Positions 3,976 to 42,327 of a stretch of 64,000 nt of DNA are shown here, piece by piece (positions within the stretch are counted from its first letter, which is position 1; the number at the start of each line of letters is the position of its first letter). The notes below the pieces were generated by a model that was not told the DNA's origin, searched no databases, and worked only from the letters and a program-made list of their open reading frames with translations. Source of the DNA: Roseivivax sediminis (GTDB lineage: Bacteria; Pseudomonadota; Alphaproteobacteria; Rhodobacterales; Rhodobacteraceae). The stretch lies in assembly GCF_900112685.1 (NCBI RefSeq), contig NZ_FOMS01000007.1, forward strand, positions 186,001 through 250,000, in the 5' to 3' direction. The position numbers were made by a program, and so were the translations under genes.

Positions 3976-4713
3976 TCAGCTGATCACGCCGCCGTCATCG
4001 TCGTCGATCTCTAGCGCCAGGGCCTCGAAATCGGGGATCTGTACATCGCGGGCCGACGGGGTCGCGATCAGCCCGTCCTTGCGCAGGGCAGAGAATTGGC
4101 GGCTCGTGGTCTCGATCGTCAGGCCCAGGTAATCGGCGATGGTCTCTCGCGACAGCGGCAGATGCAGCGCCACGGCGCCGCCCGATACCGAACCGTCATG
4201 GGCCGCGGCCTCGCGCCGGGCGAGATTGACGAGGAAGTTGACCACCTTCTCGCGCGCCGTCATCCGGCCCAGCACCACCGCCCAGTCGCGCGCGGCGTCA
4301 AGCTCGTCGAGCGTCATCACCAGCATCCTGTGTGCGATGTTGGGCGCGCTGGTCACGAGCTCCTCGAACATGCGCCGCTCGAACCGGCATAGCGTCACCT
4401 CGCTCGCCGCCTCGATGTTGTAGGCCGAGGTCGGCCGCCCCGGACGTCCGATGAAGTCCGACGGCAACAGGAGGCCGACCATCTGGCGTCGCCCGTCCGC
4501 GAAGGTGCGCGACATCGTCGCGCAGCCCGCCACGATGGACGACAGGTGATCGAGCGGCTCTCCGGCCTCCGCCAGCATCGTGCCGCGCGGGAAGGTGCGG
4601 TAGCTCTTGGCCGCTTCCAGCCGCTCCAGCTCGCTCCGGTCCGCTTCGGCGCAGACGGCGCGATGCCGGATGGGACAGTGCAGGCAGGATTCCTTGGCGA
4701 GAGTCAGGTCCAT
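3976..4713 (-). CDS. fnrL: FnrL, oxygen-responsive Crp/Fnr-family regulator
   Basis: Global activator of low-oxygen genes carrying an oxygen-labile [4Fe-4S] cluster. The 245-residue protein has an N-terminal cysteine cluster (CLHCPIRHRAVC, Cys10, Cys13, Cys21) and a fourth Cys in SSIVAGCATMS near residue 63. A cyclic-nucleotide-like beta-roll and a C-terminal helix-turn-helix follow, with recognition helix ETTSRQFSALRKDG. The ATG at 4713, preceded by GGGAGCC, is preferred over an in-frame upstream start that would place coding sequence across the FNR box. The gene sits between ccoN and hemN, as in Rhodobacter species. An FNR box 22-35 bases before its start suggests negative autoregulation. 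Confidence 0.95.
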   Translation of the reverse strand: MDLTLAKESCLHCPIRHRAVCAEADRSELERLEAAKSYRTFPRGTMLAEAGEPLDHLSSIVAGCATMSRTFADGRRQMVGLLLPSDFIGRPGRPTSAYNIEAASEVTLCRFERRMFEELVTSAPNIAHRMLVMTLDELDAARDWAVVLGRMTAREKVVNFLVNLARREAAAHDGSVSGGAVALHLPLSRETIADYLGLTIETTSRQFSALRKDGLIATPSARDVQIPDFEALALEIDDDDGGVIS

Positions 4714-11228: not shown

Positions 11229-11557
11229 GCCGCGCGCCCCACGGCGAGCGCGTCGCCGTCGATCAGGATGCGCCCGCCCTCTAGCCGAACCGGGTAGGTG
11301 GCGATGCGGCCGTCGTCGGCGCCCTCCGCCTCCCCGGTCTCCAGGTCGAAGACCCAGTTGTGCAAGGGGCACGTGACCTTGCGGCCGTGCACGATGCCCT
11401 CGGAGAGCGGGCCGCCCTTGTGCGGGCAGGTGTTGGAGGCGGCGAAGACCTCCTCCGGCCCGGTGCGGAAGAGCGCGACGCAGCCCGCGCGGGTCCGCAC
11501 GATGCGCGCGCCGCGTTCGGGCACGTCGTCGATGGCGCCAAGGTCGATCCAGCTCAT
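11225..11557 (-). CDS. nirD: nitrite reductase (NADH) small subunit
   Basis: Rieske-fold small subunit of the assimilatory NADH-nitrite reductase, 110 residues. Unlike many NirD proteins, it keeps both [2Fe-2S] ligand pairs: Cys-x-His in NTCPHKGGPL and Cys-x-x-His in TCPLHNW. The start ATG at 11557 overlaps the nirB stop by 4 bases, and its stop overlaps the nasA start by 4. This arrangement implies coupled translation of NirB, NirD and NasA. Confidence 0.94.
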   Translation of the reverse strand: MSWIDLGAIDDVPERGARIVRTRAGCVALFRTGPEEVFAASNTCPHKGGPLSEGIVHGRKVTCPLHNWVFDLETGEAEGADDGRIATYPVRLEGGRILIDGDALAVGRAA

Positions 11558-13995
11558 TCCGCAGCCTCCAGGGTCAGATCGGCGAGCGGGGCGAATGTCC
11601 GCTCCGCCTCGGGGGTGGCATGTTCGGCCCATGGGTCTTTCTGGTAGACCGATTGCGACAGGTCGAACCGCGCGACCAGCGCGGCACGCGTCTCCGCATC
11701 GCCCAGCGTCTCCTGCACCCACGGCAGGCCCACCTTGGCGAGCCACTTGTAGGGCCGGTCGAGATACTTGCCGTGCTCGCGGTAGAGCTGGACGAAGGCG
11801 ACGGTCCACTCGATCGCCTCGTCCTCCGTGGCGACCTTCACCAGCGGCTCCACCTCCTTGACATCCATGCCGGCGGCGCCGCCGACGCCGATCTCGAACC
11901 CACTGTCGACGCAGACGATGCCGACGTCCTTGCACGTCGCCTCCGCGCAATTGCGGGGGCAGCCGGAAACCGCCATCTTCACCTTGTGCGGCGTCCACGA
12001 ACCCCAGAGCCGCTTTTCCAGTTTCACCCCGAGGCCGGTGGAATCCTGCGTGCCGAACCGGCAATGATCGGTGCCGACACAGGTCTTCACGGTGCGCAGC
12101 CCCTTGGAATAGGCGTGGCCCGAGACGAGGCCGGCGGCGTTGAGATCGCCCCAGATCTTCGGCAGATCCTCCCCCTTCACGCCCAGAAGGTCGATGCGCT
12201 GCCCGCCGGTGACCTTCACCGTGGGCACGTCGTACTTCTCGGCCGCGTCGGCGATGGCGCGCAGCTCCTGCGGGGTGGTGATCCCGCCCCACATGCGCGG
12301 CACCACGCTGAACGTGCCGTCCTTCTGGATGTTGGCGTGCTTGCGCTCGTTGACGAACCGGCTCTGCGGGTCGTCGGCGTATTCGAGCGGCCAGTCGGCC
12401 AGCAGGTAGAAGTTCACCGCCGGGCGGCAGACATGGCAGCCGTTCGGCGTGGACCAGCCAAGCTCCTGCCAGACCGCCGGCTGCGATTTCAGCTCGCGCG
12501 CCTTGATGAGGCGCCGCACATCCTCGTGCGTGAGCTCGGTGCAGCCGCAGATCGGCTGCGCCGTCGGCATGGCGAAGTCGTCGCCGAGCGTCGCGGCGAG
12601 CACCTGTTCGACGAGCCCCGTGCAGGTCCCGCAGGAAGCCGACGCTTTCGTCGTCGCCTTCACGTCGGCGAGGCTGGTGGCCCCGCCCTCGATCGCCTCC
12701 ACGATCCGGCCCTTGCAGACGCCGTTGCAGCCGCAGATCTCTGCGTCAGCCGGCAAGGCTGCAACGGCGGCCAAAGGGTCCGCTGTGGCCCCTCCTCCCT
12801 GGTAGGCGGGGCCGAAGATCAGCGTCTCGCGCATCTCCGAGACGTCCTCGCCGTCCTTGATGAGACCGAAGAACCAGTTGCCGTCGGCGGTGTCGCCGTA
12901 CATCACCGCGCCGATCAGCCTGTCGTCCTCGATCACCAGCCGCTTGTAGACGCCGCGCGCGGGGTCGCGGTAGACGATGTCCTCGCGCCCCTCGCCGTCG
13001 GCGAAATCCCCTGCGCTGAAGAGGTCGACGCCGGTGACCTTGAGCTTGGTCGAAAGCTGCTTCTGCCGGAACTCCGCCGCCTCCCCGATCAGCGTCTGCG
13101 CCGCGACCTTCGCCTGATCATAGAGAGGCGCGACGAGGCCGAAGATCGCGCCCCGGTGCTCGATGCACTCGCCCACGGCAAGGATGTCCTCGTCCGAGGT
13201 GATCATCGCGTCGTCGACGTGGATGCCCTTGCCGGTGGCCAGCCCGCTCTCCTTGGCAAGCTGCACGGCGGGCCGGATGCCGACCGCCATCACCACGAGA
13301 TCGGCGGGGAGTTCCGTGCCGTCCTCCAGCCGGACGGCCTCTACCCGGTCCTCTCCGACGATCTCCTTCGTCGAGGCGCCGGTCCTTACGGTGATGCCGC
13401 GCGATTCCAGATCCTTCTGCAGCAGGTAGCCGGCCGCCTCGTCGAGCTGGCGTTCCATCAGGTGCCCGGCGAGGTGCAGCACGGTCACCTCCATCCCCCG
13501 AAGACGCAGGCCCGCCGCGGCTTCGAGGCCGAGAAGCCCGCCGCCGATCACCACCGCTTTCGCGCCTTGCATCCCCGACGCCTCGATCATCGCGTTGGTG
13601 TCGTCGAGATCGCGATAGGCGATCACGCCGGGCAGATCATGGCCCGGGCACGGGATGATGAACGGGCTCGACCCCGTGGCGAGGATAAGCTTGTCGTAGG
13701 GCACCTCCCCGTGCTCTCCGACGACGACCTTCCGGTCCCGGTCGATGCGCTGCACCTTTTCCCCGAACCGGCAGGCGATGCCGCGCTCTTCGTACCAGCC
13801 GTCGTCATGGGTGACGATCTCGGCATAGCTCTTCTCGCCCGACAAGACGGGCGAGAGCATGATGCGGTTGTAATTGCCGCGCGGCTCGGCGTTGAAGAGC
13901 GTGATGCTCCAGTCGTCCGGCGCGGTGTCCGTCAGGTGCTCCAGCGCACGGCCAGAGGCCATGCCGGCACCGATCACGACGAGGTTCCGGGTCAT
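11554..13995 (-). CDS. nirB: nitrite reductase (NADH) large subunit
   Basis: Cytoplasmic sirohaem enzyme reducing nitrite to ammonium with NADH, 813 residues. Domains in order are an FAD/NAD(P) oxidoreductase (VVIGAGMASG near residue 6; VVIGGGLLGLEAA near 150), BFD-like [2Fe-2S] segments (CGCNGVCKG ... CGTCTG around 420-455, then ICGCTEL near 484), and a sirohaem/[4Fe-4S] domain. The ligands of the last domain are CVGTDHCRFG and CPRNCAEATCKD. Sirohaem is supplied by cysG in the same cluster and electrons may be shared with NasA through its BFD domain. The start at 13995 is preceded by the GAF gene with a 15-base gap. Confidence 0.97.
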   Translation of the reverse strand: MTRNLVVIGAGMASGRALEHLTDTAPDDWSITLFNAEPRGNYNRIMLSPVLSGEKSYAEIVTHDDGWYEERGIACRFGEKVQRIDRDRKVVVGEHGEVPYDKLILATGSSPFIIPCPGHDLPGVIAYRDLDDTNAMIEASGMQGAKAVVIGGGLLGLEAAAGLRLRGMEVTVLHLAGHLMERQLDEAAGYLLQKDLESRGITVRTGASTKEIVGEDRVEAVRLEDGTELPADLVVMAVGIRPAVQLAKESGLATGKGIHVDDAMITSDEDILAVGECIEHRGAIFGLVAPLYDQAKVAAQTLIGEAAEFRQKQLSTKLKVTGVDLFSAGDFADGEGREDIVYRDPARGVYKRLVIEDDRLIGAVMYGDTADGNWFFGLIKDGEDVSEMRETLIFGPAYQGGGATADPLAAVAALPADAEICGCNGVCKGRIVEAIEGGATSLADVKATTKASASCGTCTGLVEQVLAATLGDDFAMPTAQPICGCTELTHEDVRRLIKARELKSQPAVWQELGWSTPNGCHVCRPAVNFYLLADWPLEYADDPQSRFVNERKHANIQKDGTFSVVPRMWGGITTPQELRAIADAAEKYDVPTVKVTGGQRIDLLGVKGEDLPKIWGDLNAAGLVSGHAYSKGLRTVKTCVGTDHCRFGTQDSTGLGVKLEKRLWGSWTPHKVKMAVSGCPRNCAEATCKDVGIVCVDSGFEIGVGGAAGMDVKEVEPLVKVATEDEAIEWTVAFVQLYREHGKYLDRPYKWLAKVGLPWVQETLGDAETRAALVARFDLSQSVYQKDPWAEHATPEAERTFAPLADLTLEAAE

Positions 13996-14010: not shown

Positions 14011-14946
14011 TCAGCAATACCAGGCGACGACGAAGGCCATCTCGTCGCCGCGGAAGATCGGAAGCGCCACCAGGGAGGCATAGCCGTGCCCGGCGGCCTG
14101 GGTGGCGGGTTCGGCCAGCGGCACGCCCGAGCCCAGCACGCGCCCGATGGCGCCCTGCCAGGCCGCGACGCGCCGCGGCTCTTCTTGCGTGTCATCGGTC
14201 CAGAGCGGGCCCTCGCGCTCGCAAAGCCCGTCGATCAGCACCGCGCCGCCGCGGCTGCCGACCTTGGCGGCGCGCGCGTCCCAGATCTCGAACCGCCGCG
14301 CGATGGGGGTGCCGCGCGCCGACAGGAGCGTCAGCACGCAGGTCTCACCGCCCGGACGCGGCACCGGCAGGCCGAGCCCGGTGGTCAGCCCGGCCTTGCC
14401 GGCGCTGTCGGCGCGGATGAAGCGGTAGCCCGAGCCGAGATCGCGCATCAGCGTCGGCGTGCCGCTCGCCCACACCCCGCCGGGTAGCCCCTGCCCCTTG
14501 GGGAAATGCGTGTGCTGCGACACCCATTCGAAGTGCTTGGCGGCGCCGTAATAGCCGTCGTCCAGCATCAGGAGGCCCTCGGCCTCGGTCCAGACCTCGA
14601 TGGCGCCGGTGCACGTGTCGTCATCGGCGCAGAGCGTCACCAGCACCGCCTTCAGCGACTTGCCGGCAAAGACCGGGATGGCGACGGCGCTGGTCAGCCC
14701 GGCTGCCTTCGCGGCCTCGGTGCGCTTGAAGTACGAGCCGTCGAAGCCCTTGAGCACGATGGGTTTGCCCTCGGCCCAGGCACGGCCCGGCAACCCCTCG
14801 CCCCTGGCGAAGCTGGTGCGGCGGGAGGCTTCCTCGAACGCCCGCATGGGCCCGTAATCGCCCCCGGAGAGCCGCAGCGTGTCGCCCTCGGGGACCCAGA
14901 CCTCGGAGACCTCCACGAAGGTTTTGGTTTGAACGGCGGCATCCAT
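14011..14946 (-). CDS. tandem GAF-domain protein of the nitrate operon
   Basis: No enzyme domain is visible. The 311-residue protein is built of two similar GAF-like units (about residues 8-145 and 150-300). Each contains an F-x-x-G-x-GLPG-x-x-W motif (FARGEGLPGRAWAEG and FPKGQGLPGGVWASG). GAF domains bind small ligands or redox cofactors; by its place directly before nirB it may sense nitrate, nitrite or redox state, but this is inference. The ATG at 14946 with GGAGG nine bases upstream is preferred over an in-frame TTG at 14967. It is the likely first gene of the GAF-nirB-nirD-nasA-trpD-like-cysG operon. Confidence 0.8.
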   Translation of the reverse strand: MDAAVQTKTFVEVSEVWVPEGDTLRLSGGDYGPMRAFEEASRRTSFARGEGLPGRAWAEGKPIVLKGFDGSYFKRTEAAKAAGLTSAVAIPVFAGKSLKAVLVTLCADDDTCTGAIEVWTEAEGLLMLDDGYYGAAKHFEWVSQHTHFPKGQGLPGGVWASGTPTLMRDLGSGYRFIRADSAGKAGLTTGLGLPVPRPGGETCVLTLLSARGTPIARRFEIWDARAAKVGSRGGAVLIDGLCEREGPLWTDDTQEEPRRVAAWQGAIGRVLGSGVPLAEPATQAAGHGYASLVALPIFRGDEMAFVVAWYC

Positions 14947-15061
14947 TAGCGCGGTCCTCCGTGGCAAGGGGACCGAAGCCCTCGCTTAGATTCTACATGC
15001 GGTAGTTCAAGGATCGGCACGCCCAATACATAGCTTTCCACAGAAACATACATTTTGCCTG

Positions 15062-15081
15062 ACACGTTGAATTCGTCGTGT
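15062..15081. promoter_or_regulatory. dyad upstream of brnT, candidate autoregulatory operator
   Basis: A 20-bp imperfect palindrome consists of ACACG, two bases, GAATTC, two bases and CGTGT. Sixteen of 20 positions obey the symmetry, and it ends 38 bases before the brnT start. Toxin-antitoxin operons of this family are normally repressed by their own complex, so this is a reasonable operator. No confident -10/-35 pair was recognised. Confidence 0.45.
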
Positions 15082-15119
15082 TTTGGCCGTGCACAGCAAC
15101 ATTTTGTGGTCACTGCGAC

Positions 15120-15407
15120 ATGTGGGAATGGGACGAGGCCAAGAACCGGCACAACATCGCGGCGCGCGGGATCGACTTCGCCGACGCGCGGCGCATCGAC
15201 TGGTCCACCGCCCAGATCTTCACCGACGACCGGACCGATTACGGTGAGGACAGGTTCCTGGCCCGTGGCACGATCGACGGACGGCTTCACATCCTCGTCT
15301 ATACTTTGCGCGACGACCGACTGAGGGTTATATCTCTCAGGAAAGCCAATCGCAGAGAACGCCGCGCCTATGTCGCAGAAACCGGACGATCCCTCGGAAG
15401 CCTCTGA
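15120..15407 (+). CDS. brnT: BrnT-family RNase toxin
   Basis: BrnT toxins are small RelE-fold ribonucleases that inhibit translation and are held inactive by BrnA. The 95-residue protein has the family N-terminus (EWDEAKNRHNIAARGIDFADA), the central DDRTDYGEDRF and a C-terminal LRVISLRKANRRERRAY that carries the conserved basic cluster. The ATG at 15120 gives the usual length; an upstream ATG at 15078 would run back through the dyad operator region. The gene is on the opposite strand to the nitrate genes on both sides and its 3' end overlaps the next gene by 38 bases. Confidence 0.85.
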   Translation: MWEWDEAKNRHNIAARGIDFADARRIDWSTAQIFTDDRTDYGEDRFLARGTIDGRLHILVYTLRDDRLRVISLRKANRRERRAYVAETGRSLGSL

Positions 15408-15646: not shown

Positions 15647-17326
15647 TCACGCCGCCTCCTTCTTGCCGACGGCCTTCGCCTTGGGCGTCGCGCCGTGCTC
15701 GTATTCCTCGAGGAAGGTCAGGACCTGCTCGCGGTAGAGGTAGTAGTCGGGGTGCTCCAGCAGCGCCTTGCGGGTGCGCGGGCGCGGCAGGTCGACGTTG
15801 ACGATCTTGCCGATGGTGGCCTGCGGGCCGTTGGTCATCATCACCACGCGGTCGGCGAGAAGGATCGCCTCGTCGACGTCGTGGGTCACGCAGATCGCCG
15901 TGACCTTGGTGCGCGACCAGACCTCCATCAGCACTTCCTGAAGCTCCCAGCGCGTGAGGCTGTCGAGCATCCCGAACGGCTCGTCCAGAAGCAGCAGTTT
16001 CGGCGAGAGCGCGAAGGCGCGCGCGATGCCGACGCGCTGCTTCATGCCGTTGGAGAGCGAATGCGCCGGGCGGTCCATCGCGTCGGCAAGGCCCACCCGT
16101 TCGAGGTAGTATTCGACCACCTCCTGCCGCTCGGACTGGCTGGCGCGCGGGTAGACGCGGTCGACGCCGACCGCCACGTTCTCCTTCGCCGAGAGCCACG
16201 GGAAGAGCGAGGGCGACTGGAAGACCACGGCGCGCTCGGGGTCCGCGCCCTCCACGTGCCGGCCGTCGAGCTTGATCGCGCCCTCGGAGATGTCGTTGAG
16301 CCCGGCCGCCATGGTCAGCACCGTGGACTTGCCGCAGCCGGAATGACCGATCAGCGAGACGAACTCGCCCTTGTTCATCTTCAGGTCGAAATCCTCGACC
16401 ACGGTCAGCGGGCCGTTGGGCGTCGGGTAGACCTTGTGCAGTTGGGAGAAGTCGAGGAAGCGCTCCTCGATCATGCCCTCGGTCGCCCTGGCCTGCGCCT
16501 TGGGCAGCTCGTGGATCGGCGTGACGTCCGGCAGCCGGCGCGTCTCCTCGACCTTGGAGGCGATGCCGACATCCATCAGGTACTTCGTGACGTCGGCGCG
16601 CAGCGTCTGGAAGCGGGTGTCGTGGTTCATCTCGCCGCGGTCGCGGGGACGCGGGATCGACACGCGGAACTCCTGCCCGAGCGTGCCGTCGGGATTGAGC
16701 GCGATGATCCGGTCGGCGAGGATGATCGCCTCGTCGACGTCGTTGGTGATCAGAACGCAGGTTTTCTTGTCCTGCTCCCAGATCTGCTCGATCTCGTCGG
16801 CGAGGTTGGCGCGCGTCAGCGCATCGAGCGCCGAGAGCGGCTCGTCGAGCAGCAGAACCTCGGGGTTCATCGCCAGCGCGCGGGCCACGTTGACCCGTTG
16901 CCGCATGCCGCCCGACAGCTCTGCCGGGCGGCGGGACGCGGCATGGCCGAGACCGACCATCTTCACGTAATGCGCCACCTTCTCGGCCTTCTTCGCGCCC
17001 GAGAGGTTCGGAAAGACCGTGTCAACGGCCAGCCGCACGTTGCCCGCGACGGTCAGCCACGGCATCAGCGAATAGTTCTGGAAGATCACGCCGCGCTCCG
17101 GCCCCGGCCCCTCGACCGGCTTGCCGCGGAAGGTGACGCTGCCAGAGGTCGGGGCCTCGAGCCCCGCCATCAGGTTGATCAGCGTCGTCTTGCCGGTCCC
17201 AGAGAACCCGAGGAGCACGAGGAATTCGCCCTCCGCGACCTCGAGGTCGATGGCGCGCAGCACGTCCTCTCGATGGGTGCCCTCGCCGAAGCTCTTGGAG
17301 ACATTGTCGAACTTGAGAATGCTCAT
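15647..17326 (-). CDS. nrtCD: nitrate/nitrite ABC transporter, fused double ATP-binding protein
   Basis: Energy-coupling component of nitrate uptake; two complete ABC domains lie in one chain of 559 residues. Domain 1 (about 4-235) has Walker A GFSGTGKTT, signature LSGGMRQRV and Walker B VLLLDEP. Domain 2 (about 295-545) has GHSGCGKST, LSNGMKQRV and LLLLDEPFGMLDS. Cyanobacterial NrtC carries a binding-protein-like domain instead; here the partner is a second NrtD-like ABC. An in-frame GTG at 17335 overlaps the nrtB stop; the ATG at 17326 has GGTGAG before it and is preferred. Last gene of nrtA-nrtB-nrtCD. Confidence 0.9.
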   Translation of the reverse strand: MSILKFDNVSKSFGEGTHREDVLRAIDLEVAEGEFLVLLGFSGTGKTTLINLMAGLEAPTSGSVTFRGKPVEGPGPERGVIFQNYSLMPWLTVAGNVRLAVDTVFPNLSGAKKAEKVAHYVKMVGLGHAASRRPAELSGGMRQRVNVARALAMNPEVLLLDEPLSALDALTRANLADEIEQIWEQDKKTCVLITNDVDEAIILADRIIALNPDGTLGQEFRVSIPRPRDRGEMNHDTRFQTLRADVTKYLMDVGIASKVEETRRLPDVTPIHELPKAQARATEGMIEERFLDFSQLHKVYPTPNGPLTVVEDFDLKMNKGEFVSLIGHSGCGKSTVLTMAAGLNDISEGAIKLDGRHVEGADPERAVVFQSPSLFPWLSAKENVAVGVDRVYPRASQSERQEVVEYYLERVGLADAMDRPAHSLSNGMKQRVGIARAFALSPKLLLLDEPFGMLDSLTRWELQEVLMEVWSRTKVTAICVTHDVDEAILLADRVVMMTNGPQATIGKIVNVDLPRPRTRKALLEHPDYYLYREQVLTFLEEYEHGATPKAKAVGKKEAA

Positions 17327-17331
17327 GACGC

Positions 17332-18414
17332 TCACCGGTTACTGGAGAAGGTGAAGGCGGCCTGGATCGCGTACATCAGCCGGTCGAGCGCGAAGCCGAT
17401 GAGGCCGATGGTGAAGACCGCGACCATGATCCGCGCGAGGCTCGACGACGAGCCGTTCTGGAACTCGTCCCAGACGAACTTGCCGAGGCCGGGGTTCTGG
17501 GCCAGCATCTCGGCCGCGATCAGGACCATCCAGCCGACGCCGAGCGACAGGCGCAGCCCGGTGAAGATCAGCGGAAGCGCGGATGGCAGCACCAGCTTGG
17601 TGATCTTGGTCCAGGTGTTCATCTTCAGGACCTTGGAGACGTTCACCAGATCCTTGTCGATGGACGCCACGCCCAGCGCTGTGTTGATCAGCGTCGGCCA
17701 GAGCGAGCAGAGCGTCACGGTGATCGCGGAAACCAGGAACGACTTCTCGAAGAGCCCGTCATTGGTGGCGTAGACGGCCGAGACGATCATCGTGACGATC
17801 GGCAGCCAGGCCAGCGGACTGACTGGCTTGAAGACCTGGATGATCGGATTGAGCGCGGCGTTCGCGGTGGGCGAGAGGCCGGCGAGGATGCCCAGCGGCA
17901 CCGCGACCGCGGTGGCGATCAGGAAGCCGAAGAACACCGTGCGGATCGAGGTGGCAATCTGCTGGTAATAGGACGGCGCGCCGGTATAGGCGACGTCCTT
18001 GACGTCCTCGGGGCGGCCCGCCTCGATCATGCGCTGGTTGCGCTCGGCCACCATCGTCTCGAACTTCTCGCGCCGCTCGCCGGTGCGCACGGCGTCCGCG
18101 TGAAGGCCCTGGGCCTCGTCCCAGACGGCAGCCGGCCCCGGCACGGCGCCGAGCGAGGTCTGCACCTGAGGGGCGAGCACCGCCCAGAGGGCGAGAAAGC
18201 CGAGAATGGCGAGGACGGGCACGCCGAGCAGGCGCCAGATCTCGCCCATCTGGCCCTTCGGGTTGTCGCCGGCGGCGGCCTTGAGGACCGGGGTCATCCA
18301 GGCGAGGCCGAGGACGCGGAACCACGCGTCGGCCTTGTTGATGCGGGTGAAACGGCGGGCGCGGCGCGCCTCGCGGTGGTCGGCTTCTATCGTGCTCGGA
18401 TCGACGGCGGTCAT
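17332..18414 (-). CDS. nrtB: nitrate ABC transporter permease
   Basis: Inner-membrane permease of the nitrate importer, 360 residues. A hydrophilic N-terminus (about 1-55) is followed by a first helix, a periplasmic loop of about 60 residues and the binding-protein-dependent transport domain with its usual six-helix core. The EAA-type loop is KVLKMNTWTKITKLVLPSALPLIFTG. The start at 18414 has AGGAG eight bases upstream; the in-frame ATG at 18432 lacks a good site. Between this gene and nrtA lies the cloverleaf-forming repeat at 18445-18506. Confidence 0.92.
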   Translation of the reverse strand: MTAVDPSTIEADHREARRARRFTRINKADAWFRVLGLAWMTPVLKAAAGDNPKGQMGEIWRLLGVPVLAILGFLALWAVLAPQVQTSLGAVPGPAAVWDEAQGLHADAVRTGERREKFETMVAERNQRMIEAGRPEDVKDVAYTGAPSYYQQIATSIRTVFFGFLIATAVAVPLGILAGLSPTANAALNPIIQVFKPVSPLAWLPIVTMIVSAVYATNDGLFEKSFLVSAITVTLCSLWPTLINTALGVASIDKDLVNVSKVLKMNTWTKITKLVLPSALPLIFTGLRLSLGVGWMVLIAAEMLAQNPGLGKFVWDEFQNGSSSSLARIMVAVFTIGLIGFALDRLMYAIQAAFTFSSNR

Positions 18415-18444
18415 GGTCGGATCTCCTGGCATTGGGTGCGTGGA

Positions 18445-18515: not shown

Positions 18516-19883
18516 TCAGCCCTGGACTTCGCCGCCGACGATGCGCTGCTCGCCCTTCAGCCCGATATCGAGGCTGTCGAGGTACGCATTGGGCGTGCGG
18601 CCGTCGTAGGGGATGCCGTCGATGATGTCCTCGGGCGGGGTCGGCGCCTTGTAGCCGTCGCTGTCCCAGGGGAAGTCGGCCTCGTCGGCGAGCCCGTCAT
18701 CGACCAGCGCCCGCGCCGCCTCGAGATAGATCTCCGGCTTGTAGACCGACTTGGCGACCTCGTCGTACCAGCTGTCGGGCTGCGGCTCCGCGATCTGGCC
18801 CCAGCGGCGCATCTGCGTGAGGTACCACACCGCGTCCGAATAGAACGGGTACGTCGCGTTGTAGCGGAAGAACACGTTGAAGTCGGGCACCTCGCGCACG
18901 TCGCCCTTCTCGTATTCGAACGTGCCGGTCATCGAGTTGGCGATCACCTCCTCGTCGGCGCCGACATATTCGGGGCGCGACAGGATCTCGACCGCCTCCT
19001 CGCGGTTGGCGTTCTCGTTCTCGTCGAGCCACATTGCCGCGCGGATCAGCGCCTTGGTCACCGCGAGCGTGGTGTTGGGGTTCTCTTCGGCGAACCCCGC
19101 GGTGATGCCGAACACCTTCTCGGGGTTGTTCTTCCAAATCTCGTAATCGGTGATGACCGGCACCCCGACGCCCTTGAACACCGCCTGCTGGTTCCAGGGC
19201 TCGCCCACGCAATAGCCGTAGATCGTGCCGGCCTCGAGCGTCGCGGGCATCTGCGGCGGCGGTGTCACCGACAGGAACACGTCGGCCTGCACCTGCCCCG
19301 TCGCGTCGCCGTCGGCGTAAAAGCCCGGATGCAGCCCGCCGGCGGCAAGCCAGTAGCGCAGTTCGTAATTGTGTGTGGAGACCGGGAAGACCATGCCCAT
19401 GTTGAAGGGCCGGCCGCTGGAATTGTAGTCCTCCACCACCGGCGCCAGAGCTTCGGCGCTGATCGGGTGCTGCGGCAGGCCGTCCTCGTTTTCCGGGATG
19501 TTCGGCTTCATCTCCGCCCAGACCTCGTTCGACACGGTGATGCCGTTGCCGTTGAGGTCCATCGAGAACGGGGTGACGATATGCGCCTCGGTGCCGTAGC
19601 CGATGGTCGCGGCCAGCGGCTGACCGGCGAGCATGTGCGCCCCGTCAAGCTGCCCGTCGATCACGCCGTCCAGCAGAACCTTCCAGTTGGCCTGCGCCTC
19701 CAGCGTCACGAACAGCCCCTCGTCGAGGAAATAGCCCTGTTCGTAGGCCACCGCGAGCGGCGCCATGTCGGTCAGCTTGATGAAGCCGAAGGTCAGTTCG
19801 TCCTTCTCGAGGTCGAGCATCTGGGCAAGCGCCGGAGAGGTCAGCGCGGTCGAGGCCGCAAGTCCGATGATGAGATGTTTCAT
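18516..19883 (-). CDS. nrtA: nitrate ABC transporter substrate-binding protein
   Basis: Periplasmic nitrate/nitrite receptor of the NrtA/CmpA family, 455 residues from the ATG at 19883. A typical signal peptide ([20 protein letters not shown], cleavage after residue 20) is followed by [21 protein letters not shown] and the conserved [13 protein letters not shown]. An in-frame start at 19895 (MDTG) is also possible. The open frame upstream crosses the leader terminator and is not coding. It lacks the lipobox seen in cyanobacterial NrtA. It is expected to be made only when NasT relieves the attenuator at 19936-19991. Confidence 0.93.
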
Positions 19884-19935
19884 CCCTGTATCCATCCTTG
19901 GCCGTCTTCCCCTGTCCGGAAGACGAGCAGACAAC

Positions 19936-19985
19936 AAAAAAGCCGCTGACGCGCCCTGCCGCATTCGGCAGAGGGTCGAGCGGCT
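19936..19985 (-). terminator. intrinsic terminator in the nrtA leader (attenuator)
   Basis: On the minus strand AGCCGCT (19979-19985) pairs with AGCGGCT (19941-19947), extended by GAC/GTC after a one-base bulge. It encloses a second stable stem and is followed at once by six U residues (19936-19941). It lies 52 bases upstream of the nrtA ATG with no gene between nasS and it, so it can only act on nrtA transcription. Confidence 0.85.
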
Positions 19986-19991
19986 GTGCTC
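19956..19991 (-). promoter_or_regulatory. ANTAR-type antiterminator hairpins P1-P2, NasT target
   Basis: P1 (19978-19991) is GAGC, hexaloop ACAGCC, GCUC, with A at loop position 1 and G at position 4 as ANTAR proteins require. P2 (19956-19971), six bases downstream, is CUGCCG, loop AAUG, CGGCAG. The 5' arm of the terminator (19979-19985) is contained in P1, so P1 and the terminator cannot form together. nasT, which encodes the ANTAR protein, lies immediately upstream. The P2 loop is shorter than the usual six bases. Confidence 0.7.
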
Positions 19992-20121
19992 ACGTGTCCC
20001 GGTCGTCGGGAGATATCTTCGGAAAGAGGTCTCGGCGGACGCCATTGCCCGGCCGACACCTCATGCTATGCGCGACAGCCGGACATCGCGCAACGGCGGC
20101 CAGGCGGAAACGGCGCCGGCC

Positions 20122-20135
20122 CTGCCGCATTGCAG
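20122..20135 (-). promoter_or_regulatory. additional ANTAR-like hexaloop hairpin after nasS
   Basis: CUGC, hexaloop AAUGCG, GCAG lies 34-47 bases downstream of the nasS stop. The loop has A at position 1 and G at position 4. The surrounding 13 bases GCCCTGCCGCATT (20119-20131) recur exactly in P2 of the terminator-proximal pair (19953-19965). It may be a second NasT site or a relic of duplication. Confidence 0.4.
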
Positions 20136-20168
20136 CACATTTCGGCGCGATTGTTCAGATCTTGGGCA

Positions 20169-21344
20169 TCATGAAAGCGCGGGATCGAAGACCTGGCCGT
20201 CGAAGAAGGTGTCACGGGCCAGAATCAACCTCCCCGAGCGCGAACCTGCCGGCGTGTCCGCCGACAGTGCCCCTTCCAGCCGCGAGGAGGCCGAAGGAAT
20301 ATCGCACTGCGTCGGCGCCATCGCCGCGCGGAAATAGTCCGAGCGGAACCGCTCCGCCGCCGCGGCGGCCGCCTGCGCCCGGTCGAGGCCGGTGCGCGCC
20401 GAAAGCTGCGCGCCGATCCAAGCGCCCTGGCTGCGCCAGGGGAAGTTCGCGCAGAAGCGATGGAATTCCACGAAGCGCGGCACCTGCCGTTCCTCCCCGC
20501 GCGCGGACACCACGATGCGCCCGCTCAGGGCCCGCTCGATCAGCTCCGCGGCGATGCCCAGATGCTCGGCGCGGCTCAGAAGCTCCGCCGCGATGGTGAG
20601 CGAGCCGGGATCGGACAGCCAGCGCCCCGCCCGCCACACCGCACGGATCAGACGGCCGCGCAGGTCGGGCTCCGCCGTCGCCCAGTCGGCGCGCACCGCG
20701 AGCACCTTCTCGGGCGAGAACGCCCAGATCGCCGCCCCCGGCAGAAGCAGCGTCGCGCCGCCCGTCTCCACCGCGTAGGAGCCCCAGGGCTCGCCCACGC
20801 AGAAGGCATCGATCTCCCCGGCCTTCAGCGCATCGGCCATCGTCGCCGGCGGGAAGGTGCGCACCGACAGGTTCTGCGGCGCGGGCAGACCCAGCGCCGA
20901 GAGCCAGTAGAACATCAGCTCGGCATGCATGGAGAACGGGAACGGCACGCCGACGCGCAGCGGCGCATCCGCCGCCGCGATCAGCGCGCGGCCCGCGGCG
21001 CCGGCGTCGTCGAAGGCGAAATCGTGCCCGGCGGCGCGCAACCGCTCGGCCATCGCCGCGCTGACGCCGACGACGTTGCCGTTGACCGACAGCACCGACA
21101 CCGCGTCCAGGGTCGTCGCGGTCCCGCCGAGGCCCAGTGCCTGCGCCACCGGCACCGGCGACAGAAGGTGCGCCGCCTCGACATGTCCGAAGCTCAGAAG
21201 ATCGCGCACCGCCGACCACGATGGCGCACGTCGCAGATCGAGGCTGAGACCCTCCTCTGCGGCGAAGCCCATGCGCTCGGCGACGATCAGCGGGGCGGCA
21301 TCCACCAACGGGTTGAACGCGACGGAGAGTGTGACCGTCCTCAT
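20169..21344 (-). CDS. nasS: NasS, cytoplasmic nitrate sensor
   Basis: Belongs to the NrtA/CmpA binding-protein family but has no signal peptide (starts MRTVTLSVAFNPLVDAAPL), so it stays in the cytoplasm. In Azotobacter and Paracoccus, NasS holds NasT inactive and releases it when nitrate or nitrite binds. The 391-residue protein shows FNPLVDAAPLIVAERMGFA and the family motif AFCVGEPWGSYAV, which aligns with the YCVGEPW of NrtA. It overlaps nasT by 4 bases, so both partners are made together. Confidence 0.9.
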   Translation of the reverse strand: MRTVTLSVAFNPLVDAAPLIVAERMGFAAEEGLSLDLRRAPSWSAVRDLLSFGHVEAAHLLSPVPVAQALGLGGTATTLDAVSVLSVNGNVVGVSAAMAERLRAAGHDFAFDDAGAAGRALIAAADAPLRVGVPFPFSMHAELMFYWLSALGLPAPQNLSVRTFPPATMADALKAGEIDAFCVGEPWGSYAVETGGATLLLPGAAIWAFSPEKVLAVRADWATAEPDLRGRLIRAVWRAGRWLSDPGSLTIAAELLSRAEHLGIAAELIERALSGRIVVSARGEERQVPRFVEFHRFCANFPWRSQGAWIGAQLSARTGLDRAQAAAAAAERFRSDYFRAAMAPTQCDIPSASSRLEGALSADTPAGSRSGRLILARDTFFDGQVFDPALS

Positions 21345-21925
21345 CCCAGCAGCCCCGCCGAGGTTACCAGTGCCTCGGCCACGTCGGCCACGCGCCGGCC
21401 GCGGTCCATCGCGGTCTTGCGCAGGAGCGCGTAGGCCTCGTCCTCGCTGATCCCCCGCGCGCGCATGATCATGCCCTTGGCGCGGTCGATGACCTTGCGT
21501 TCCTCCAGCGCGCGCTTGGCCTCTGCCAGTTCCATCCGCATGCGCTGGAACATGCGGAAGCGCGCGATAGCGGCGTCGAGCACCGGCTTCAGGCGCCGCG
21601 GCTCCATCCCGTCCACGACATAGGCGGACACGCCCGCCTCGATCGCCGCCGCCGACAGCCCCTCCTCGGAACGGTCGACGAACATCGCCACCGGCCGATC
21701 GAGCGGGCCGGATGCGAGCGCCAGTTCCTCGAGCTGATCGCGCGAGGGATTGGCCATGTCGATCAGCACCACGTCGGGCGCGTGATCGCGGATATTGCCG
21801 GCCAGCGAAGCCGGCTCCGACAGGATGCGGATGTGGAAATCACCCGCGTCGTTCAGCGAATCGACGATCTGCAGCGCGCGTTCGCGGTCGGGTTCGACGA
21901 CGATGATGGAAAGCCGCTCGGACAT
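21341..21925 (-). CDS. nasT: NasT, ANTAR-domain RNA-binding antiterminator
   Basis: Response-regulator-like protein with a C-terminal ANTAR domain that binds leader RNA and prevents termination. It has 194 residues. The receiver-like domain (about 1-125) starts LSIIVVEPDRERALQ and keeps an Asp in VVLIDMANPS. A coiled linker leads to the ANTAR domain (about 130-190), KVIDRAKGMIMRARGISEDEAYALLR. The ATG at 21925 is used; an in-frame GTG at 21943 is possible. Its target is the hairpin pair in the nrtA leader. An NtrC-like site lies about 70-80 bases upstream. Confidence 0.92.
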   Translation of the reverse strand: MSERLSIIVVEPDRERALQIVDSLNDAGDFHIRILSEPASLAGNIRDHAPDVVLIDMANPSRDQLEELALASGPLDRPVAMFVDRSEEGLSAAAIEAGVSAYVVDGMEPRRLKPVLDAAIARFRMFQRMRMELAEAKRALEERKVIDRAKGMIMRARGISEDEAYALLRKTAMDRGRRVADVAEALVTSAGLLG

Positions 21926-21962
21926 GGCTTCATCTGTCGGCACCCGGCAGCGCGGTGTAAAG

Positions 21963-42239: not shown

Positions 42240-42327
42240 GCAATCGAACGATGCAACGCCCTTCGGGGCAGCATGTTCATACCTCCCTGTTGGACTTCGG
42301 CCGAGCTTTGTGCTCGGCCTTTTTTTT
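42240..42327 (+). ncRNA. candidate small RNA ending in a strong terminator (5' end not defined)
   Basis: A UUCG-capped hairpin (GCCC-TTCG-GGGC, 42258-42269) is followed by about 29 mostly unpaired bases containing ATACCTCCCTGTTGG. Next is an intrinsic terminator of 8-bp arms GGCCGAGC/GCTCGGCC (42299-42319) and eight T residues. The CCTCCC stretch is complementary to Shine-Dalgarno sequences, as in many alphaproteobacterial trans-acting sRNAs. Alternatively it is only the 3' untranslated region of lysR. The 5' end lies somewhere between 42165 and 42245; I cannot place the promoter. Confidence 0.45.

Follow-up and report, generated by a model that had tools for sequence, protein, structure and literature searches.

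How might transcription of the nrtABC genes be made to respond to nitrate at this locus, and which RNA hairpins would carry that response? On the minus strand of the 64,000-nt stretch of DNA analysed here (the window), nasT, nasS, nrtA, an nrtB-like permease gene and an nrtC-like double ATPase gene lie consecutively. The product of nasT (21341 to 21943, minus strand) is an ANTAR antiterminator (PF03861, 78 bits; EutV chain 6wsh, E 1.9e-15), and the cognate protein expected of an ANTAR RNA is thus encoded beside the leader. nasS (20169 to 21344, minus strand; PF13379) was named as a nitrate/nitrite sensor gene by its place in the gene order and by analogy with nasTS systems in the literature. 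The original prediction had placed nasT and nasS upstream of the leader, and genes for NasT and a NasS-like protein were found there. nrtA (18516 to 19895, minus strand; PF13379, 313.7 bits), named from gene order and annotated relatives and given a start codon of our choosing, is the first gene 3' of the leader; the permease and ATPase genes (15647 to 18432, minus strand) matched TIGR01183 below and TIGR01184 above cut-off. The leader element itself sits in the 273-base interval between nasS and nrtA.

On the sequence comparisons that follow, the nrtABC leader is very probably a NasT-controlled, nitrate-responsive transcription attenuator, known in kind and occurring here in a three-hairpin, sometimes four-hairpin, form. 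The core of the original prediction, an ANTAR attenuator linked to NasT and NasS in front of nrtA with an antiterminator overlapping a terminator, was retained, while its hairpin anatomy had to be redrawn. What would be new is the form with three tandem hairpins; ANTAR antitermination by NasT is known.

Downstream of the nrtC-like gene lie a GAF-domain ORF (14011-14967) and nirB, encoding the siroheme nitrite reductase large subunit (11554 to 13995, minus strand; TIGR02374, 879.5 bits, above cut-off). An ORF of the BrnT toxin family (15078-15407; PF04365, 82.5 bits) is found on the plus strand between the nrtC-like gene and nirB. Because this ORF intervenes, a common transcript reaching nirB stays conjectural.

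Comparison set

A scan for NasS gave 80 loci, which we take to be Rhodobacterales; 78 of these, together with the window, supplied 79 leaders directly 5' of nrtA. Two loci were excluded for want of an nrtA match at 60% identity (L047 and L073), of which L047 does contain the element (66.5 bits). Four P1 hairpins (L010, L026, L075, L080) and three P2 hairpins (L010, L076, L080) were placed by hand. Alignment A1 comprised 74 of the 79 leaders, leaving out L020, L023 and L039 (long linkers) and L078 and L079 (no middle hairpin). Mononucleotide shuffles served as controls for spacing and CCUCC, for the terminator apical stem and for the inverted repeat, and dinucleotide shuffles for linker hairpins and strict P1.

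The terminator and its antiterminator hairpin

An intrinsic terminator occupies 19935 to 19985 of the minus strand. Its 5' arm (19979-19985, AGCCGCU) pairs with its 3' arm (19941-19947, AGCGGCU) at a run of six U (19936-19941), and the 63 bases from 19931 to 19993 are more stably folded than all but one of 200 dinucleotide shuffles (z = -3.13). The terminator was missed by a simple terminator scanner, whose loop limit is 8 bases. The 5' arm lies within a hairpin, GAGC-ACAGCC-GCUC (19978 to 19991, minus strand; loop 19982-19987), so that both the six-U terminator and the ACAGCC hairpin enclosing its 5' arm are where they had been predicted. This hairpin had been labelled P1. The ANTAR literature, in the parts available, assigns the hairpin at the foot of the terminator to the P2 position (PMC3369931, PMC8934654, PMC3369936), and the hairpin must be called a canonical P2: near-invariant, with A at loop position 1 and G at position 4 (A1 and G4), it stands at the terminator foot and pairs with a terminator arm in all 79 leaders. 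A P2-type A1/G4 hexaloop overlapping an intrinsic terminator, as in the definition of ANTAR antiterminator RNAs (Ramesh 2012), is therefore present.

In alignment A1, 100% of P2 stem cells are paired. P1 and P2 loop tallies over the 79 leaders (P1: A1 76, G1 3, G4 79; P2: A1 79, G4 79) are not independent evidence, because both hairpins were searched for by their A1/G4 loops; the covariation of P1 and P2, given below, does count as independent support. Forming P2 instead of the terminator costs 8.1 kcal/mol in the window, the terminator being favoured when the two are folded jointly, and is energetically costly in 79/79 leaders (median 10.3 kcal/mol). Where the third base of the P2 loop is G, its terminator partner is C in eight of nine leaders; where it is C (n=3), the terminator pair is kept in one and absent in two.

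The terminator tip of relatives (for instance L002 and L024) carries CCUCC in 41 of 79 leaders, against 7.3 in mononucleotide shuffles, and CUCCUCC in 27 of 79, against 0.4. The motif resembles an anti-Shine-Dalgarno sequence, and the transcript that ends at the terminator might serve as a small RNA.

The upstream P1 hairpin

The switch extends beyond the 19936-19991 originally assigned to it, as far as 20055. A hairpin at 20033 to 20055 (minus strand) has the hexaloop AAUGGC (20041-20046; A1, G4), closed by C-G, and is marked as P1 by conservation and covariation; the upstream A1/G4 hexaloop that completes the definition of Ramesh 2012 is thus found at this position. When strict criteria are applied, 53/79 leaders have a P1 at the most common distance, against 0.3 in dinucleotide shuffles, and the P1 closing pair is C-G in most. 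In 73 leaders of the 79, the P1 and P2 loops are separated by 41-53 nt; the exceptions are the window at 59 nt, with its P1 loop 5' of the P2 loop and a P1-P2 linker of 45 nt, and five others at 28, 29, 68, 76 and 76 nt. The window's loop distance is about 10 above the mode, and the extra bases, at 20012-20032, could fold into a small hairpin of their own.

Covariation points to the same structure. In alignment A1, both sides of column pair 6-23 have changed in 23 of 71 distinct rows and both sides of pair 9-20 in 16, and across P1, P2 and the hairpin M that lies between them 135 cells are altered on both sides, against 55.8 when shuffled.

Further upstream, an inverted repeat, TGCTGCAATGCGGCA (20123 to 20137, no strand assigned), is a candidate promoter-side DNA site. 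Similar repeats were found in 21 of 79 leaders, against 0.09 in mononucleotide shuffles, for a pattern devised after the leaders had been viewed. They keep a near-constant distance to P1, starting a median of 80 nt ahead of its 5' edge. The repeat is possibly an operator or promoter element.

The terminator apical stem

The second hairpin predicted six bases after the first does exist (19956 to 19971, minus strand; CUGCCG-AAUG-CGGCAG). It is the tip of the terminator and not P2, nor is it a conserved ANTAR hairpin. In the apical part of the terminator, L043 alone among the 79 leaders has an A1/G4 hexaloop (1.0 in mononucleotide shuffles), and the window and L027 alone have an A..G tetraloop hairpin (also 1.0). 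No leader other than that of the window shows the AAUG loop in its C-G frame. The idea that this short loop defines a variant of the motif therefore falls away. Both hairpins can coexist in the window once the terminator arm is omitted, which would allow the original assignment of P1 to 19978-19991 and of a tetraloop P2 to 19956-19971. Given an apical loop that is no commoner than chance and a genuine P1 upstream, we regard that assignment as next to untenable.

A third hairpin between P1 and P2

Between P1 and P2 lies hairpin M (19997 to 20011, minus strand), UCCCG-ACGAC-CGGGA, a pentaloop with a conserved G. A hairpin of at least four pairs is present in the P1-P2 linker of 68/77 long-linker leaders, against 19.4 in dinucleotide shuffles, and in the other nine leaders of this set, which represents the window's clade, no hairpin of four pairs was found. 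Among the 74 leaders aligned for the clade, 67 retain the M loop G. With five bases and G at position 3, the window's loop departs from the six-base A1/G4 form; within the clade the loop ranges from 4 to 7 bases, being five in 31/77 leaders, and takes the A1/G4 hexaloop form in 14/77, against 1.2 in dinucleotide shuffles.

The middle hairpin is often of full ANTAR type, for example GGUC-AAUGCU-GGCC, in genomes that encode NasT and are without a match to our covariance model of the array (R1, below). Of 44 such genomes 43 were fetched; G159 was set aside for its broken NasT, and L148 lacked a nasS match. The remaining 42 leaders form the sister set. In 24 of them a script resolved P1 and P2, and in 11 of the 42, several of them Paracoccus-like, it detected no P2 with a terminator. 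An A1/G4 hexaloop is present in 16 of the 24 parsed linkers (0.34 in dinucleotide shuffles), and in 20 of 24 if G is also allowed at position 1 (0.55). In alignment A3, which holds 28 sister-set leaders (L136 excluded by judgement; L146, L167, L226, L227 and L229 added by hand), the M loop has A1 in 21, G1 in 7, G4 in 27 and a closing C-G in 25.

The M stem letters co-vary in pairs across relatives, including in the model-fitted alignment (71 loci or window). On a simple alignment M alone gives 28 doubly changed cells, against 14.1 shuffled, and its covariation score is 0.200, below the 0.222 obtained after a shift of one column; the signal is indistinct there because the loop varies in length and shifts the register. 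For the complete structure in A3, cells altered on both sides number 57, compared with 15.7 after shuffling. An RNAalifold consensus recovered P1 and P2 and did not predict M. The conservation and covariation expected among relatives that keep nasST-nrtA were thus seen for P1, for P2 as redefined here and for M, most clearly in the sister set, and not for the hairpin originally called P2.

Because M has the hexaloop form in sister lineages, we infer that it may be an additional NasT docking site. It might instead be a spacer or pause hairpin that brings P1 and P2 close together or slows polymerase without touching NasT, a role that the variable loop of the window's clade would suit, as would the reported importance of the P1-P2 distance (PMC3369931, PMC8934654, as far as their accessible text goes). 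G4 and a closing C-G would be superfluous in a spacer, however, and the sister-set M mostly obeys the ANTAR loop rules, in a sample of 28 leaders of which 23 had been chosen without regard to M; the retention of the loop G in the window's clade speaks the same way. We consider such a spacer unlikely, though to be taken seriously. Far less plausible is a reading of M as a transcription-factor binding site in DNA, an inverted repeat in place of an RNA hairpin. The window's M is indeed a perfect inverted repeat, and regulation by NtrC has been reported upstream of Paracoccus nasT (PMC5424462, in the part available). Against this stand the paired stem changes among relatives, a sister-set loop that is better conserved than its arms, and the position of M between two RNA hairpins, hence within the presumed transcript; the repeat at 20123-20137 is the better candidate for a DNA site.

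Spacing and modularity

In the published ANTAR elements described in the accessible text of PMC3369931 and PMC8934654 there are two hairpins, joined in the eut leaders of E. faecalis by linkers of 5-12 nt, whereas the P1-P2 linkers of the present leaders have a median length of 35 nt (45 nt in the window) and enclose a third hairpin. The short linker of the two-hairpin definition is accordingly absent between P1 and P2 and roughly present only between neighbouring hairpins, and we class the leader as an ANTAR variant because its P1-P2 linker exceeds the eut range. EutV is reported to be harmed by a 14-nt linker (PMC3369931) and by 20 added linker nt (PMC8934654), in the portions available. M could be placed in 89 of 101 long-linker leaders; there the median gaps are 14 nt for P1-M (taking the P1 stem as 4 bp, though in many leaders it is longer), 6 nt for M-P2 and 35 nt for P1-P2. 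That neighbouring gaps approach the 5-12 nt of eut while P1-P2 lies beyond the tolerance of EutV is our main reason for thinking M part of a relay.

The number of hairpins varies. L078 and L079 have a P1-P2 linker of 14-15 nt and no M, the sole short linkers among the 79 leaders; L020, L023, L039, L175 and L220 appear to have two middle hairpins, hence four in total. L129 and L130 were considered as further leaders lacking M and rejected, since the longer sequences L226 and L227 reveal another hairpin upstream. We tentatively suggest, at somewhat less than even confidence, that Rhodobacterales NasT leaders are modular ANTAR arrays of two, three or four hairpins, with NasT passed along them or bound as an oligomer to all. 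In such an array the span up to the terminator could lengthen without any single step becoming long. The EutV structure paper argues, in its accessible text, that one hairpin is bound at a time and then handed off (PMC8934654); were the arrays modular, this hand-off would become a general, extendable relay. How an ANTAR dimer handles two hairpins remains debated, and the natural two-, three- and four-hairpin arrays offer a ready test set.

Proposed mechanism and related systems

In Paracoccus, NasS and NasT are reported to separate on nitrate or nitrite, and NasT to bind the nasA leader (PMC3795266, available part). By the mechanism proposed here, NasS would hold NasT when nitrate is absent, the 3' half of P2 would pair with AGCGGCU, and polymerase would halt at the run of U. 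Were nitrate or nitrite present, NasT would be set free to bind the leader and stabilise P2, which would prevent the terminator. The binding site would be the 5'-3' array P1-M-P2. Since the steps from hairpin to hairpin are short, NasT probably takes P1, then M, then P2 as each emerges from polymerase. NasT residues R149, K150 and R154 align with EutV R142, K143 and K147 (chain numbering taken as offset by two), for which RNA contact is reported in the accessible text of PMC8934654.

The leader resembles those of eutP, nasF and amiE, as far as the available text describes them (PMC3369931, PMC8934654), in its A1/G4 hexaloops, in a last hairpin overlapping the terminator and in control by an ANTAR protein. 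It is also like the P. denitrificans nasA leader, which shares its regulators and gene order and is bound by NasT; two hairpins, HI and HII, are named in the accessible parts of those reports (PMC3795266, PMC5424462), and HI is stated to be required for nas expression and induction (PMC5424462). On the P. denitrificans plasmid NZ_CP141053.1 (L237) we found three ANTAR-like hairpins, at 4470-4485, 4496-4509 and 4519-4532, with the loops AACGGC, AATGAT and GACGAT. The first contains an AscI site, such as was employed for cloning in the published work, and HI, which was deleted there, probably corresponds to P1. On that reading, and reasoning across strains, the remaining pair of hairpins would be insufficient without P1 even at a normal distance.

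The PPE1-5' RNA of M. tuberculosis likewise has three predicted hairpins and an ANTAR-domain partner, PdtaR; it differs in being described as titrating PdtaR in trans, with hairpins around a start codon and no role as a leader terminator, and neither A1/G4 loops nor spacing come up in the available part of the report (PMC8131098). Bradyrhizobium diazoefficiens NasT (PMC6759348) is alike in antitermination of nitrogen genes and differs in its operons (nos and others). A full-text literature search, with subscription papers mostly and supplements outside its reach, returned no three-hairpin ANTAR leader in titles or abstract openings, the nearest case being the PPE1-5' RNA, and an earlier mention is possible. 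No Rfam family reached its gathering cut-off in the leader (best weak match 15.2 bits, cut-off 40).

Distribution and association with NasT

Across 292 genomes of the order, R1, the P1-M-P2 covariance model, gave matches in 106 (E of at most 0.01), the E-values being rough and the training species possibly recurring among the genomes searched. NasT is present in 149 of the 292: RNA and NasT occur together in 105, the RNA alone in one (G212), NasT alone in 44 and neither in 142. Of the 113 R1 matches, 104 lie within 3 kb of nasT. The other nine comprise seven matches preceding siroheme-synthesis genes, an nrtA leader in G042 with nasT 3.5 kb away, and one match in G212 (L175). At 2633-2730 of L175 there is a four-hairpin leader, and a NasT search of G212 gave no match; this leader is perhaps a leftover. 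In the window's own genome the R1 regulon search yielded one credible match, the next (22 bits) covering P1 only. Over 190 genomes of the class, eight genomes outside the family gave a match at E up to 0.05; one was credible (G397, 5.7e-5) and the other seven had E 0.011-0.045.

The array precedes siroheme-synthesis genes of cysG/cobA type in L118, L119, L121, L123, L124, L126 and L128. Two of these genes were confirmed by NCBIfam (cysG; cobA/cysG C-terminal type) and five by eye, from the same protein starts. They are probably a second NasT target, which would link nitrate sensing with the synthesis of siroheme, the nitrite reductase cofactor.

Among 40 regions taken from other groups, seven loci yielded eight two-hairpin arrays with the array script (linkers 3-11 nt), and L186 (its first hairpin weak) and L217 yielded three-hairpin arrays. 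The script drew a blank in 31 of the 40, where the leader may lie elsewhere or have been overlooked by it. The array gives searches for ANTAR targets a pattern to look for across a large group of bacteria from sea and soil.

Two further observations concern the same genome. It encodes a second ANTAR protein, of AmiR type (L082, contig C14; PF21332 and PF03861), and the ORF directly before it is, by eye, presumably an AmiC-type binding protein. Within the window, a SorX small RNA (RF02784, 49.3 bits) was detected at 42257-42325 on the plus strand.
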